IMG/VR virus record: IMGVR_UViG_3300032296_001527
Location: 1 to 23,455 of that record
Reading direction: 5' to 3' (one strand)
Source: a virus
DNA length: 23,455 nt
The notes under the pieces are model-generated. The model saw nothing but the letters and a program-made list of their open reading frames with translations, was not told the DNA's origin and searched no databases. Each line of letters starts with the position of its first letter. Position 1 is the stretch's first letter. Position numbers and translations under genes: made by a program. Positions 3,607 to 8,433 of the stretch are shown in pieces.

Positions 3607-3896
3607 GAGACTTCACTAAGTTCACCTGCTTCATCAGGGGAGTTCTTGAGACTGGATATGTCATTAAGCACTCAGACAAGCAGCTCCGGCATGATGTCAA
3701 GATGCACTTCAATAGGTTGCTTCATGAGGCTACTCAGTTTGAGAAGTTCTTGAAGGTTCAGCTAGGTGATGAAATGGCTGAGGCTGAAGATGCCATTAAC
3801 TCAGCTGTGGTAGACCTGGTCTGGCAGATTTTTGATATGAATGAGGAGCAGGTGCAGAAATTTTTTGATCACATTAATGCTTTTCAAGAAAAGTAG
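3603..3896 (+). CDS. hypothetical helical phage protein (97 aa)
   Basis: Starting at the ATG that overlaps the previous stop (ATGA, 3603-3606), the protein reads MRDFTKFTCFIRGVLETGYV and then appears almost entirely helical, with an acidic middle (DEMAEAEDA) and a final amphipathic helix (NEEQVQKFFDHINAFQEK). A TTG at 3588 could extend it by five residues but the coupled ATG is more likely. I do not recognise the family. It is the last gene before the non-coding stretch at 3897-4017 and so closes the first rightward cluster. Confidence 0.6.
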   Translation: MRDFTKFTCFIRGVLETGYVIKHSDKQLRHDVKMHFNRLLHEATQFEKFLKVQLGDEMAEAEDAINSAVVDLVWQIFDMNEEQVQKFFDHINAFQEK

Positions 3897-3897
3897 T

Positions 3898-3905
3898 TAA
3901 GTTTG
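3898..3905 (+). promoter_or_regulatory. -7 promoter box upstream of the structured RNA
   Basis: TAAGTTTG matches TAnnTTTG exactly and begins two bases after the preceding stop codon. The predicted start of transcription, 5-7 bases downstream, coincides with the first hairpin at 3910. No good -33 element is seen at the expected distance. Confidence 0.4.
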
Positions 3906-3907
3906 TA

Positions 3908-4017
3908 ATGCCGAAAGGCCGCTGGGTAGGAGCAGCGTGTTTCAAATTCTTTAATGTCCTTTGTCCGCTTAGTAGGGTCTCCTACCCCGAACGGCGAACA
4001 AAGGATTTTTTATTTTT
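3908..4017 (+). ncRNA. candidate structured RNA with possible loop-loop pseudoknot and terminator
   Basis: This gap between coding regions folds into successive helices. Hairpin A is GCC-GAAA-GGC (3910-3919). Hairpin B has stem CGCTG/CAGCG (3920-3924 with 3933-3937) and an 8-base loop GGTAGGAG. That loop is perfectly complementary to CTCCTACC at 3979-3986. A long outer stem pairs TCCTTTGT (3957-3964) with ACAAAGGA (3998-4005) and is followed by T6-A-T5. Inside it, GTAGG (3972-3976) can instead pair with CCTAC (3981-3985), so the loop of hairpin B and this strand compete for the same partner. It may be a free small RNA of about 100 bases or a leader controlling the genes from 4018. I matched it to no known RNA family; a pistol-type ribozyme shares a hairpin-loop pseudoknot but the remaining core does not fit. 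Confidence 0.5.
3957..4017 (+). terminator. intrinsic terminator, possibly conditional
   Basis: An 8-bp stem (3957-3964 with 3998-4005), extended past a C/A mismatch by about four more pairs, is followed by TTTTTTATTTTT (4006-4017). It sits directly against the ATG at 4018, so full termination would silence the replication genes unless it is bypassed or they have another promoter. Confidence 0.55.
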
Positions 4018-4191
4018 ATGCATTTAGTTTTTAATGAATTAAAAATTGACATCAGTTACAGTCCACAACTTAATAATGTCAAAGTTATGGTGTGGTTAGA
4101 TGAAGTTCTTGTTGCAGAAGGTATTTATGATAATTTCTTAGATATACCTTCAGTTGAACAAATTTTACTTGATAGTGGAATATATCTATGA
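4018..4191 (+). CDS. hypothetical small protein (57 aa), first gene of the replication block
   Basis: The ATG at 4018 directly follows the T-tract of the terminator, and the frame runs to TGA at 4189-4191, which overlaps the ATG of the initiator-like gene (ATGA). The product begins MHLVFNELKIDISYSPQL, contains VKVMVWLDEVLVAEGIYDNF and ends with a helix plus DSGIYL. It looks like a small alpha/beta protein with two or three strands. The stop-start overlap and the AT-rich codon use shared with the following gene support it as a real gene. Function is unknown; early translation through the structured leader could couple expression of the replication protein to it. Confidence 0.55.
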   Translation: MHLVFNELKIDISYSPQLNNVKVMVWLDEVLVAEGIYDNFLDIPSVEQILLDSGIYL

Positions 4192-4859
4192 ATGGCTATC
4201 AATTAACAGATGCTTGGTTTGAATTTAGATTTCAGCATCCGGATAAAGTTTCACATTCTCATACTGAGCTTTATTTCTACTTGGTTTACCATTGGAACAA
4301 GTTGAGCCAAAAAGAAAAATTTGGGTTACCATCTGCCATAACGATGGAGGCAACCGGAATAAAAAATTACAAAACTTATTCAAAGTGCCTTAAAGATTTG
4401 GTTGAATTTGGGTTCATAAGGATAGTTCAGGAAGCAATAAATCAGCATCAAGCTGTTGTAGTTGCTTGGGGCAAAAATACCAAAGCAGATACTGAAGCAC
4501 TGACAGAAGCACTGACTAAAGCACAGCATGAAGCACTGCCCCACATAGTAGAACTAAATAACTTAGTAACTAATGAACTTAAGAAAGAGAGCAAAAAATT
4601 TATTCCTCCAACTTATGAGGAGGTAGAAGCCTTCTTTCTTGAAAACAATGAGAGTCTAAATAATCTACCAAGGTGCTATCATCACTATGCTGATCATAAT
4701 TGGACAAATAGTCATGGTAAAAAAGTAAAGGACTGGAAGCGCACAATTAAAACTAATTGGTTCGGTAAAAACCAAAATATGACAAACCAATTCGTTCCGC
4801 CCGATCCACCGCCAGGAGTAAGCCGAAAATTTCACGAATCTTACAAACCTAATCAGTAA
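4188..4859 (+). CDS. replication initiator-like protein (winged helix, helicase-loader type)
   Basis: The 223-residue protein has an N-terminal region (about 1-95) with the pattern of a winged-helix DNA-binding domain: TELYFYLVYHWNKLSQKE, then SAITMEATGIKNYKTYSKCL and LVEFGFIRIV. A low-complexity linker of TEAL-type repeats follows (about 102-117). The C-terminal part (FIPPTYEEVEAFFLEN, then HHYADHNWTNSHGKKVKDWK and a W-containing helix) resembles the DnaD-like or replisome-organiser tail found in phage initiators, including the K-x-x-W-K-x-x-x-x-x-W ending. Such proteins bind the origin and help load the replicative helicase, encoded 5 bases downstream. The codon use is more AT-rich than in the helicase gene. 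The family call is moderate; the role is inferred mainly from context and layout. Confidence 0.65.
   Translation: MNGYQLTDAWFEFRFQHPDKVSHSHTELYFYLVYHWNKLSQKEKFGLPSAITMEATGIKNYKTYSKCLKDLVEFGFIRIVQEAINQHQAVVVAWGKNTKADTEALTEALTKAQHEALPHIVELNNLVTNELKKESKKFIPPTYEEVEAFFLENNESLNNLPRCYHHYADHNWTNSHGKKVKDWKRTIKTNWFGKNQNMTNQFVPPDPPPGVSRKFHESYKPNQ
4491..4538 (+). repeat. four 12-base tandem repeats (iteron-like) inside the initiator gene
   Basis: Units at 4491, 4503, 4515 and 4527 read ACTGAAGCACTG, ACAGAAGCACTG, ACTAAAGCACAG and CATGAAGCACTG. A decayed fifth unit (7 of 12 bases) lies at 4479-4490. They encode TEAL, TEAL, TKAQ and HEAL. An AT-rich stretch follows to about 4610. This is the arrangement of an origin inside an initiator gene, as in phage lambda O. 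Confidence 0.6.
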
Positions 4860-4864
4860 ACACT

Positions 4865-6196
4865 ATGACATTCGAAAATGAACAACTGGAAGCACAAGTG
4901 CTTTCCGCAATGATGCTGCATGATGATGAGAGGCTAACTGCTTTTACCATCCTGCCAAACATTGAGGTATTTCAAATTGCTAAACACAAGGTAATAGCAC
5001 AGGCCATCCAAGCCCTGCAAGATGCCGGAGAGCCTGTCAGCCTAGAGACAACAGTGGCAACCATTAAAAAGTCCAGCATGATCAAGGAGGCTGGAGGAGT
5101 AGCTTACATTGCCAAGGTTTTTGCCTCACTTAAAAACCCTGGTCATATAGAGTCACACTGCCGATTGCTCATTGAGCATTACCTAAAGGCAAAGGCCTAT
5201 TTTGTGGCATCAGACCTGTTTGCTGCTGCCAATTCAGAATCCGGTGACATATTTGACTACATAGTCAAACTCCAGCATCAACTTGATAACTTACTCAGCC
5301 AGCAAGTGAGCAAATCAGATGACTCCTTTGCCAACCAGCTTGACAAGTCAGCTAAGATATTCCTGAACAAAGCAAACGGTGAAATATCAGGCTACTCTAC
5401 TGGCATAAAAAGCCTTGACCATCTGTGCGGTGGGTTTGTGGATGGTGAGCTTACAATTGTCGGTGCTAGACCAGGGCAGGGTAAGACGGCTTTAGTAGTT
5501 AGCTTCATGCGAAACCTAGCCAAGCAAGGCATAGGCTGTGGCCTATTCAGCCTTGAGATGACCAAGCACGAACTTGTCCAGCGCATAGCCAGTCAGGAGT
5601 CTCAGGTTTATGCCTTCAAGATCAAGCAGGGTGATTTATCGCCACTTGACAAGACAGCACTACTTGATGGCATTAACCGGATGAAGCAATGGAACATCAG
5701 GATTCACGATGAAGGAAACCTAAACATCAGCAGCATCAAGGCAAAGGCTACCATCTGGAAAAACAAGTATGGCATAAAGGTCATATTCATAGACTACATT
5801 GGATTAATCAACTCCGTAAATCCAAAGGAGACTAACCGGGTTAATGTAGTGTCGGAAATAAGTAGAGGATTAAAATTACTAGCAAAAGACCTGCAAATGC
5901 CAATCATAGCACTAAGCCAGCTTAGCCGTAGGGTTGAGGAGCGCAGCGACAAGATGCCAATTATGTCAGACCTCCGTGAGTCTGGCTCTGTTGAGCAGGA
6001 TGCCGATGTTATCTGGATGATGATGAGGCCTGAGTACTACTTTGACAAACACAGCACTTTTAAACTTGGAAACCAGGAGTTGCCAAATGATGGCCTATGC
6101 CTGATTGATCAGGTAAAAATGCGCTCCGGTAGCACCGGAATAATACCTTTGCGATTCGATGCCCCACTAATGCGGATCAGAGACTACCATGATTGA
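4865..6196 (+). CDS. dnaB: DnaB-type replicative DNA helicase
   Basis: This 443-residue protein is a complete DnaB-family helicase, the hexameric motor that unwinds DNA at the fork. The N-terminal helical domain (about 1-110) begins ENEQLEAQVLSAMML and has the usual VSLETTVATIKK segment. The RecA-like domain starts near 178 with STGIKSLDHLCGGF, then Walker A GARPGQGKT (200-208), LFSLEM (227-232), Walker B VIFIDY (306-311), ALSQLSR (349-355), DLRESGSVEQDAD (369-381) and the RSGSTG segment (420-425). All key nucleotide-binding residues are present. At 443 residues it is near normal length. It follows the initiator-like gene and its end overlaps the next gene by 8 bases, forming one replication operon. 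Phage DnaB proteins usually act with a loader, probably the upstream gene. Confidence 0.93.
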   Translation: MTFENEQLEAQVLSAMMLHDDERLTAFTILPNIEVFQIAKHKVIAQAIQALQDAGEPVSLETTVATIKKSSMIKEAGGVAYIAKVFASLKNPGHIESHCRLLIEHYLKAKAYFVASDLFAAANSESGDIFDYIVKLQHQLDNLLSQQVSKSDDSFANQLDKSAKIFLNKANGEISGYSTGIKSLDHLCGGFVDGELTIVGARPGQGKTALVVSFMRNLAKQGIGCGLFSLEMTKHELVQRIASQESQVYAFKIKQGDLSPLDKTALLDGINRMKQWNIRIHDEGNLNISSIKAKATIWKNKYGIKVIFIDYIGLINSVNPKETNRVNVVSEISRGLKLLAKDLQMPIIALSQLSRRVEERSDKMPIMSDLRESGSVEQDADVIWMMMRPEYYFDKHSTFKLGNQELPNDGLCLIDQVKMRSGSTGIIPLRFDAPLMRIRDYHD

Positions 6197-6635: not shown

Positions 6636-7112
6636 ATGGCAGCACCGAAAGGAAATCAATGTTGGATGCTCAGGCTTAAGCATGGGCTAGATGGCAGATT
6701 CAAAACTCCTGAAGAAATCTGGGAGAATTTTGTCCAGTATGTTCAGTGGGCAGAAGAAACTCCGTTGATTGAGGTGGACTTTAGAGGCAAGGATGCCACA
6801 GAGGTCAATCTGCCAAAGAAAAGATTGCTCACCAAGGAGGGCTTTGCACTGGCTTGTGGCTTCTCCTGCTGGACTAAGCTATCAGAGTATAAGACTAAAT
6901 CAAAAGACTTCGGTAGTGTCTTTACACGCATAGAGCAGGCCATCTACACCAGCAAGCTGGAAGGGGCTGCAAGTGGCCTATTTAATCACAACATCATTGC
7001 CAGAGATTTAGGCCTAATGAACCAGGAGCAGGTCAATATGCAAGTGGTGGAGGTCATTAAGCCAAGGCCTAACAAGAAGGGAGCAGAGAAAGAGGCTGAT
7101 GCCGAAGGTTGA
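6636..7112 (+). CDS. terminase small subunit
   Basis: The 158-residue protein begins MAAPKGNQCWMLRLKHG, has PEEIWENFVQYVQWAEE, then TKEGFALACGFSCWTKLSEY and ends in a basic/acidic tail. This matches the Bacteroidetes-phage type of DNA-packaging small subunit: an N-terminal basic segment, a helical bundle, a helix-turn-helix-like LTKEGFALACGFS segment, then an oligomerisation helix and a flexible tail. The small subunit recognises the packaging site on viral DNA and stimulates the large subunit's ATPase. Its end overlaps the large terminase start by 14 bases, the usual arrangement, which supports the call strongly. Confidence 0.8.
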   Translation: MAAPKGNQCWMLRLKHGLDGRFKTPEEIWENFVQYVQWAEETPLIEVDFRGKDATEVNLPKKRLLTKEGFALACGFSCWTKLSEYKTKSKDFGSVFTRIEQAIYTSKLEGAASGLFNHNIIARDLGLMNQEQVNMQVVEVIKPRPNKKGAEKEADAEG

Positions 7113-8433
7113 TCTCTCAAGTCCTGACCTTTGGCAGGAGAAGTACTTAGAAGCAGTTACAGACCCAAAGACCTACAACATACTCTGGGGCGGTGCTGGA
7201 AGTGGCAAGAGCCAGACCATGATTCAGCTGTTCCTGGCTGAAATATGCGACAACAAGGCTAACCAATTTCAGACCTTCTTTGTGATCCGCAAAGTAGCTG
7301 CTACCATCCGGAACTCAGTTTTTGCTGACTTCCGCAATAAGATTAGCCAATGGGGGCTAGATAAGCTCATCAAGGCCAAGACTGGCTACATGGAGCTGCA
7401 ATCAGGCACAAATAAGATTGTGTTTCTAGGTTGTGATGATCCTGAGAAGCTCAAGTCATTGAGCCAGGCAAAGTACATTTGGATTGAGGAAGCCACTGAG
7501 CTGACCTTGGAAGACTTCACCCAGATAACTCTCCGACTGAGGGGTAAGTCAGAGCATCCAAAGCGATTCTTTCTCACATTCAATCCGGTCTCAGATAGCC
7601 ACTGGATTAAGAAGCGGTTCTTTGATGATGTGCCAGCCAAGGAGCAAAACCAAGTTCTCCGGCTGCATGGCACTTACAAGGATGCCATTGACTTTCTGGA
7701 TGATGAGTATGTGACCAGGATGGAGGCACTCAAGTCAGTCAGCCAGACTTATTACGAGGTCTATGCCCTTGGGCAGTGGGGCATTTGGGATAGGGAGTCA
7801 CTTTTTGCCACCAGCTTTGAGTACAGCAAGCATGTTTATGATGGCTACATCAAGGCCTCTCCGGTGCATAACCTTTACTTAGCCTTTGACTTCAATGTAA
7901 CCAACACCTGCGTGGTGAGTCAGTACATAAAGAACTCTGAGGAGGGCATCTATTATGCCACTATCAATGTCATCAAGGTCTACCGAGTAGGTGATCTTGC
8001 TGCCCTCTGCCAAACCATCCGGCAAGAGTTCCCAGGCATGACATACATCATCAATGGTGATGCCTCCGGTGCTTCTCGCAATGCCTTTACTCAGGACAAC
8101 ATCAGTGCCTATGCCCTGATTAAGAACTACCTTCAGGTGAATGACATGCAGCTTCAGGTGGCTAAATCAAACCCTAGCCACATAGCCAGCAGGCTGGTGA
8201 CTATCCTTGTGCTTCAGAAGGCCAAGGTGCAGATAAGTGGCAAGCGGTGTGAGGAGCTGGTTACAGACCTCAAGGAGGCCAAGGTAGATAGGCAGGGCAG
8301 CCTAGATGCCTGGAAGAACAAGAACCCGGACAAGTCTCATGCTCTAGATGCCTTCAGGTATTTTATTTTCTCTAACTTTGCAGAGATAACTTCAAATTTC
8401 AATCTGGAAAAGTATGGCTCAATGCTGCAATAA
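7099..8433 (+). CDS. terL: terminase large subunit (ATPase and nuclease)
   Basis: This 444-residue protein is the DNA-packaging motor. The N-terminal ATPase has Walker A GGAGSGKS (31-38), R64 in FVIRKV, Walker B YIWIEEA (126-132) with catalytic glutamates, and the coupling segment FLTFNPVS (158-165). The C-terminal RNase H-like nuclease has metal-binding aspartates in AFDFN (D264), NGDASG (D321) and HALDAFRYF (D417). The sequence order fits the Terminase_3/Terminase_3C group. It pumps DNA into the procapsid through the portal and cuts the concatemer. All catalytic residues are present, and length is normal. The 3' end overlaps the next gene by 20 bases. Confidence 0.93.
   Translation: MPKVDLSSPDLWQEKYLEAVTDPKTYNILWGGAGSGKSQTMIQLFLAEICDNKANQFQTFFVIRKVAATIRNSVFADFRNKISQWGLDKLIKAKTGYMELQSGTNKIVFLGCDDPEKLKSLSQAKYIWIEEATELTLEDFTQITLRLRGKSEHPKRFFLTFNPVSDSHWIKKRFFDDVPAKEQNQVLRLHGTYKDAIDFLDDEYVTRMEALKSVSQTYYEVYALGQWGIWDRESLFATSFEYSKHVYDGYIKASPVHNLYLAFDFNVTNTCVVSQYIKNSEEGIYYATINVIKVYRVGDLAALCQTIRQEFPGMTYIINGDASGASRNAFTQDNISAYALIKNYLQVNDMQLQVAKSNPSHIASRLVTILVLQKAKVQISGKRCEELVTDLKEAKVDRQGSLDAWKNKNPDKSHALDAFRYFIFSNFAEITSNFNLEKYGSMLQ

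Follow-up and report, generated by a model that had tools for sequence, protein, structure and literature searches.

The locus considered here raises a plain question: are the short tandem repeats in the middle of a phage initiator gene kept for the peptide that they encode, or for the DNA itself, as the site where replication starts? The window, i.e., the whole stretch of 23,455 nucleotides that was analysed, comes from the viral record IMGVR_UViG_3300032296_001527, and the initial annotation had placed a candidate origin at these repeats. The proposal is supported by codon choice, by repeats that persist in related phages independently of the reading frame, and by an adjacent labile tract. 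Judged from its sequence, the segment 4479-4584 is very probably a theta-type replication origin, consisting of iterons and an unwinding element, within the coding sequence of the initiator; this degree of probability is given to it because related phages keep the DNA repeats even where the encoded protein changes. The features concerned are the following.

4188-4859 (+): initiator gene, 223 aa; PHROG matches to 'replication initiation O-like' (E 4.6e-5) and 'replication initiation protein' (E 5.3e-4).
4188-4475 (+): N-terminal winged-helix domain, codons 1-96, presumed to bind the iterons and forming the left part of the cassette described below; AlphaFold2 model and winged-helix matches.
4479-4538 (+): five 12-bp direct repeats (iterons), consensus ACTRAAGCACTG, core RAAGCA.
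4545-4584 (+): presumed DNA-unwinding element, ATAG (4545-4548) and then the octamers AACTAAAT at 4552, AACTTAGT at 4560, AACTAATG at 4568, and AACTTAAG at 4576.
4611-4784 (+): C-terminal helical domain, about residues 142-199, exchangeable, presumed helicase recruiter; pLDDT 92-97 over residues 141-190.
4865-6196 (+): DnaB-type replicative helicase, 443 aa; PF03796 (E 1.3e-77) and PF00772 (E 5e-12).

The window protein matches no family in Pfam (E<=0.01), PDB sequences, or NCBIfam. In the AlphaFold2 model of the whole protein (mean pLDDT 80, pTM 0.48), the N-terminal domain follows the order helix-helix-strand-helix-helix-strand-strand (pLDDT 86-97 over residues 1-90), and the linker at about residues 100-135, which is encoded by the putative origin DNA, is modelled with low confidence. 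This N-terminal domain is common to 195 of the 215 loci compared. The structures that VIA-align places beside it are winged helices throughout, among them the plasmid initiators 4pql, 4pt7, and 5kbj (Z 8.3-8.9 over 104-108 residues) and DnaD 2vn2 (Z 7.0); 5kbj and its neighbouring structures we take to be staphylococcal RepA. 4PT7 is named as such in the available part of one report (PMC7145576). Fur-type regulators reach Z 8.6-9.7, and since they score as well as the plasmid initiators, the fold match alone decides nothing. Foldseek returned nothing at E<=0.001, and the predicted viral structures matching the initiator include phage replication proteins. As the initial annotation had stated, a DnaB helicase gene comes next (4865-6196), assigned by its PF03796 match.

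A conserved noncoding RNA-like element is located upstream of the replication operon (3905-4014, +). It comprises two hairpins with the complementary loops GGTAG[G/C]AG and CT[C/G]CTACC, which possibly form a kissing loop, and the second hairpin is followed by a terminator-like T-run. The pattern occurs at 22 loci; in the alignment of 15 distinct sequences, from which exact duplicates and L007 (which does not have the element) were left out, all cells of the 31 named pairs are standard pairs, with two-sided changes in 6 pairs, one of them in the loop-loop helix. The element stands before several different initiator types and has no match worth the name in Rfam at E<=1. It is followed by a 57-aa ORF without family assignment (4018-4191, +), whose last 4 bases overlap the initiator start; in several other phages, a comparable small ORF stands behind the RNA-like element.

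The array itself (4479-4538, +) is made of five direct 12-base units, ACCAAAGCAGAT, ACTGAAGCACTG, ACAGAAGCACTG, ACTAAAGCACAG, and CATGAAGCACTG, each with the core AAGCA. Four of them had been described at 4491-4538 and are present exactly there; the fifth, which had been called decayed, does lie upstream at 4479-4490, with its core AAAGCA still intact. The claim that TEAL-type repeats run in frame through the middle of an initiator-like gene also holds: all five units are in frame with the ORF 4188-4859 and encode a TEAL/TKAQ peptide repeat. On both strands of the window, RAAGCA pairs 11 or 12 bases apart occur solely in this array. No inner inverted repeat was detected: with arms of 10 bases or more, 3850-4900 contains 22 inverted pairs, none of which has both arms inside 4479-4538, and RNA structure across the array shows no excess over shuffled sequences (z -0.47).

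The most immediate alternative to an origin is that the DNA repeats follow from a repeated peptide, a TEAL-type helical or flexible linker. The units of the window are in frame, the TEAL/TKAQ repeat is kept in close relatives, and a helix is modelled, with low confidence, at residues 103-115. Codon choice, however, goes beyond what such a peptide requires. When the same peptide was recoded with codons resampled at the window's own usage, the presence of AAGCA in 5/5 units had P 2e-5, and the unit-to-unit identity of 85/120 had P 1.3e-4 (null 67.9 +/- 3.5). In the window clade (15 distinct N-domain sequences, counting that of the window itself), synonymous diversity falls from 0.34 in codons 1-97 to 0.18 in the repeat and 0.04 in codons 118-130; just 3′ of the repeat, residues vary and synonymous sites are nearly constant, which is the pattern of a DNA element. 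The initial annotation had regarded relatives keeping the TEAL peptide with other codons as evidence against an origin. The 15 distinct close sequences do not do so, the Ala codons retained in the repeat being all GCA, a codon that makes up 37% of Ala codons window-wide.

More distant relatives lead to the same conclusion by another route. A search of IMG/VR with the window protein gave 21 loci, 16 of them close in the N-domain, one more distant (L021), and four (L017-L020) sharing the C-domain only; searches with the diverged relatives L021 and Danklef_1 gave a much larger family, which, loci found by the DNA pattern included, has 155 distinct members. Cultured relatives in Polaribacter, Flavobacterium, and Riemerella point to Bacteroidota as the host group. 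The Polaribacter phage Danklef_1 carries the motif nine times, at steps of 12, 12, 12, 11, 12, 11, 12, and 12, in all three frames. Among the 45 distant members found by protein (a set that leaves out L043 and L044, distant members grouped with the close ones), steps of 12, 11, or 23 bases account for 212 of 219 spacings, and the motif is in all three frames in 28. In these phages, it is the DNA motif that persists and the peptide that changes through three reading frames. Across the 155 distinct members, the mean number of chained units is 4.8 as compared to 0.26 under synonymous resampling, with P<0.05 in 148, figures to be read with the bias of this set in its frame counts and null, as pattern-found loci were required to have 12-11-12 steps; the 45 protein-found members are the unbiased set.

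A scan of DNA blind to the protein, for AAAGCA at 12-11-12 steps, returned at least 120 loci. The initiator N-domain is present in 118 of the 120 matches listed, and the remaining matches, in L099 and L205, are no more than 80 bases from a contig end. The triple motif was found in 27 of 29 larger records, with 0 matches for the reversed control; it forms a single cluster in 26 of the 27, and G025 has an extra distant match. Weak arrays also occur despite an intact N-domain: in 16 of the 155 members, exact AAAGCA units number just one or two, and the scanned form of the unit occurs once each in L083 and L066. The match in Flavobacterium phage tooticki has no direct repeats, and a profile search of bacterial genome contigs with strict peptide patterns gave no relative.

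The iterons are followed, as had been claimed, by about 70 AT-rich bases: 4539-4610 is 69% AT, and 4546-4583 reaches 76%, as compared to 57% for the window. This tract contains a second tandem array, absent from the initial annotation, of four octamers AACTNNNN in 8-base steps at 4552-4583. The octamers are out of frame, and their 8-base steps allow no in-frame repetition. The most labile 40-mer of the gene begins at 4545, belongs to the top 0.5% of the window, and coincides with the octamers, where the melting minimum of the gene is placed. The array pattern has an exact match in the window, and with up to 2 mismatches it gives 2 overlapping matches, as compared to 0.04 expected. The period was first tested on loci that were partly those that had prompted it. 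In a later comparison, lag-8 values were 0.447 vs 0.347 under the synonymous null in the window clade (n=14) and 0.450 vs 0.363 in distant members (n=37); the held-out members, which had not contributed to the hypothesis (n=72), gave 0.459 vs 0.365, lag 7 ranking second. Octamers are alike within one phage and unlike between phages, e.g., AACCAATN in L077 and AACAATAT in L065. The octamer array opens with ATARATAAACMA or a closely similar block in 26 of 37 distant and 50 of 72 held-out members and in 0 of 14 members of the window clade. A linker explained by coding only is thus opposed by codon choice, by frame-independent repeats in relatives, and by the window's own out-of-frame octamers, and it can be considered extremely improbable.

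A different proposal is that the repeats are an operator, to which the initiator binds in order to repress its own operon, with no origin involved. Plasmid iterons are able to serve both ends, according to the passage on pSK639 in a partly available review (PMC5703833), and the N-domain resembles transcription regulators. Conversely, the array is situated some 290 bases into the gene, and a promoter scan of 3800-5000 found sites no commoner than in shuffled sequences and none just 5′ of the array on the + strand. An operator alone would also leave the adjacent labile octamer array unexplained. A purely regulatory site is very improbable; a double role of the array, as origin and operator, is conceivable.

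The winged-helix domain, the iterons, and the octamers behave as one cassette of about 390 bp, behind which the C-terminal domain is swapped. Its boundaries come from an ungapped comparison of the window with 10 relatives. In 8 of them, identity to the window is 70-93% through the octamers and about chance from +420, the C-domain being replaced by unrelated sequence; upstream of the start codon, identity is also at chance in 7. The block 4458-4487, which includes the first iteron core, is identical in 9 of the 10. The C-terminal parts form 22 clusters among 141 members (single linkage). The mutual information between C-domain type and downstream gene was reached by 7 of 2000 shuffles (n=105), a value obtained from related sequences and crude single-linkage clusters, for which reason co-adaptation of the two is not claimed. 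What the sequence itself shows is the constraint at the DNA level, both arrays, the labile tract, the layout of the domains, and the limits of the cassette.

A second initiator type was observed at L257:5570-6250 (+), with like genes in L267, L271, L275, and L276 and a similar operon. Its N-domain is 47% identical to that of the window (45/96), and its C-terminal part resembles that of L008 and L009. Its 12-base units are of the TGAGCAAGCACC type and its octamers of the AACCAATA type, at positions matching those in the window, so that iterons and octamers differ along with the winged helix and keep their positions. The Riemerella phage CRP6 has another 12-base unit, then a AAACTAAAT-type sequence, and then the helicase gene.

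In two further genes, L017:532-1146 (+) and L019:4629-5279 (+), the C-domain of the window is fused to an unrelated N-terminal part (MKSRDSMVLYRSFYDA...). Their linker is rich in AAGCA/AAGCG-like words and 12-base repeats, which may represent another intragenic origin.

Other DNA sites can be envisaged for the array, such as a packaging site (pac), a partition site, or a recombination hot spot serving the domain swapping. In the window, terminase genes lie about 2 kb downstream (6636-8433), one of the weak fold matches is to a plasmid centromere-binding protein (4rs8, E 0.05), and the swap boundaries fall at the right edge of the array. In Danklef_1, however, the array stays with the initiator at 29.3 kb and the terminase genes are at 45.4-47.2 kb. 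No partition gene is found among the neighbouring genes scanned, the array varies in sequence together with the winged helix, and a hot spot alone would not maintain a frame-independent spacing. A site of this kind is very improbable, and the replication origin remains the preferred reading.

From this origin reading, we infer the following course of initiator binding, melting, helicase recruitment, and origin firing. Copies of the initiator would bind the 12-bp iterons by the N-terminal winged helix and would wrap or coat the iteron DNA; units that all point the same way and recur every 11-12 bp would suit a wrap or filament better than dimers acting independently. The strain would melt the adjoining AT-rich octamer tract (4545-4584), which would be held open, perhaps through recognition of the octamers by the initiator. 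DnaB, encoded next door, would then be recruited by the exchangeable C-terminal domain, and the disordered linker between the domains would be what the origin DNA happens to encode.

GC skew, a check suggested in the initial annotation, was tried as an origin mark and rejected. The detrended minimum lies within 5% of genome length from the iterons in 3 of 14 records, and its median distance is 0.195 of the genome as compared to 0.25 expected. The 544 nt of Danklef_1 are striking, but the 14 records together are uninformative; the skew neither supports nor refutes the origin and is not counted as support.

A broader proposal can be put forward tentatively, with somewhat less than an even chance of being correct as a whole. 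The initiator and its origin would be a portable cassette of about 390 bp, consisting of a winged helix, cognate iterons at 11-12 bp through all frames, and a phage-specific array of 7-8 bases acting as a specific strand-opening element, with a role comparable to that of the oriC 13-mers. The cassette would have spread in Bacteroidota phages via exchanged C-terminal helicase-recruiting domains, with a linker dictated by the origin DNA. For a wide range of phages (155 distinct members, with the Polaribacter phage Danklef_1 as cultured relative), the analysis yields a base-level prediction of the replication origin, and it offers a simple rule for locating origins in uncultured phage genomes. 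One motif through three frames is an unusually clear natural case of DNA needs overriding protein coding, and the array of 7-8 bases beside the iterons bears on what an unwinding element needs beyond AT richness.

Among known systems, the most fitting name for the locus is that of an intragenic iteron origin with an octamer unwinding element beside it, a variant of a known layout. The literature search, in which few subscription journals were covered, found no paper on the origin in this phage family; in the accessible part of the Danklef paper (PMC8776804), the word "iteron" is absent and no origin is named for Danklef. Layout and modularity match lambda O, SPP1 gp38/oriL, and the pSK41/pPR9 RepA_N plasmids, the last of these most closely.

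The likeness to lambda drawn in the initial annotation is right as to layout and not as to its parts. The lambda O gene likewise has iterons at its centre and an AT-rich tract behind them (PMC7466680, PMC5043065, both in the parts available), and the window protein has its weak PHROG match to 'replication initiation O-like' (E 4.6e-5). Conversely, in lambda the iterons are inverted repeats, to which O binds as a dimer (same parts of PMC7466680, PMC5043065), whereas the window has direct 12-bp units; the window protein has no Pfam family at E<=0.01 that would link it to lambda O by sequence; and the place next door, taken by the loader P in lambda, is occupied in the window by the helicase DnaB itself. 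For the iterons of Stx phages, synonymous changes abolish the origin, as reported in the accessible text of PMC7466680.

In SPP1 gp38/oriL, direct repeats and an AT-rich unwinding element lie inside the initiator gene, and the phage has its own DnaB-type helicase, as far as the available text tells (PMC6316719). SPP1 is likened to the window by layout; it differs in having another origin besides oriL and gp39 as a loader of its own (PMC6316719, same portion). The window and Danklef_1 have one array each, counted in a window and records that may be incomplete. A Firmicutes case is provided by Lactobacillus phage PLE3 (L217), whose N-domain is about 27% identical to that of L021. At L217:2773-2945, nine repeat copies, mostly at 12-base steps, lie in the middle of a DnaD-like gene; the repeat sequence is different, and the arrangement suggests the same origin layout.

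The closest comparison is with the pSK41-type RepA_N plasmids. Several differences have to be noted: the window has 12-bp direct units without an inner inverted repeat, together with an 8-base array; the phages concerned are, by their relatives, those of Bacteroidota and not Firmicutes plasmids; DnaB is encoded next door; and the 53 members searched match 12 Pfam families between them (E<=0.01), of which PF06970 is not one. According to the available portion of PMC5703833, the N-terminal winged helix of these plasmid initiators binds boxes central in the rep gene, the central part of the protein is a dispensable linker encoded by the origin, the C-terminal domain is exchangeable, and in pPR9 the N-domain and the origin were exchanged as a unit of about 500 bp. 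A linker encoded by the putative origin and an exchangeable C-terminal domain are also seen in the family to which the window belongs.
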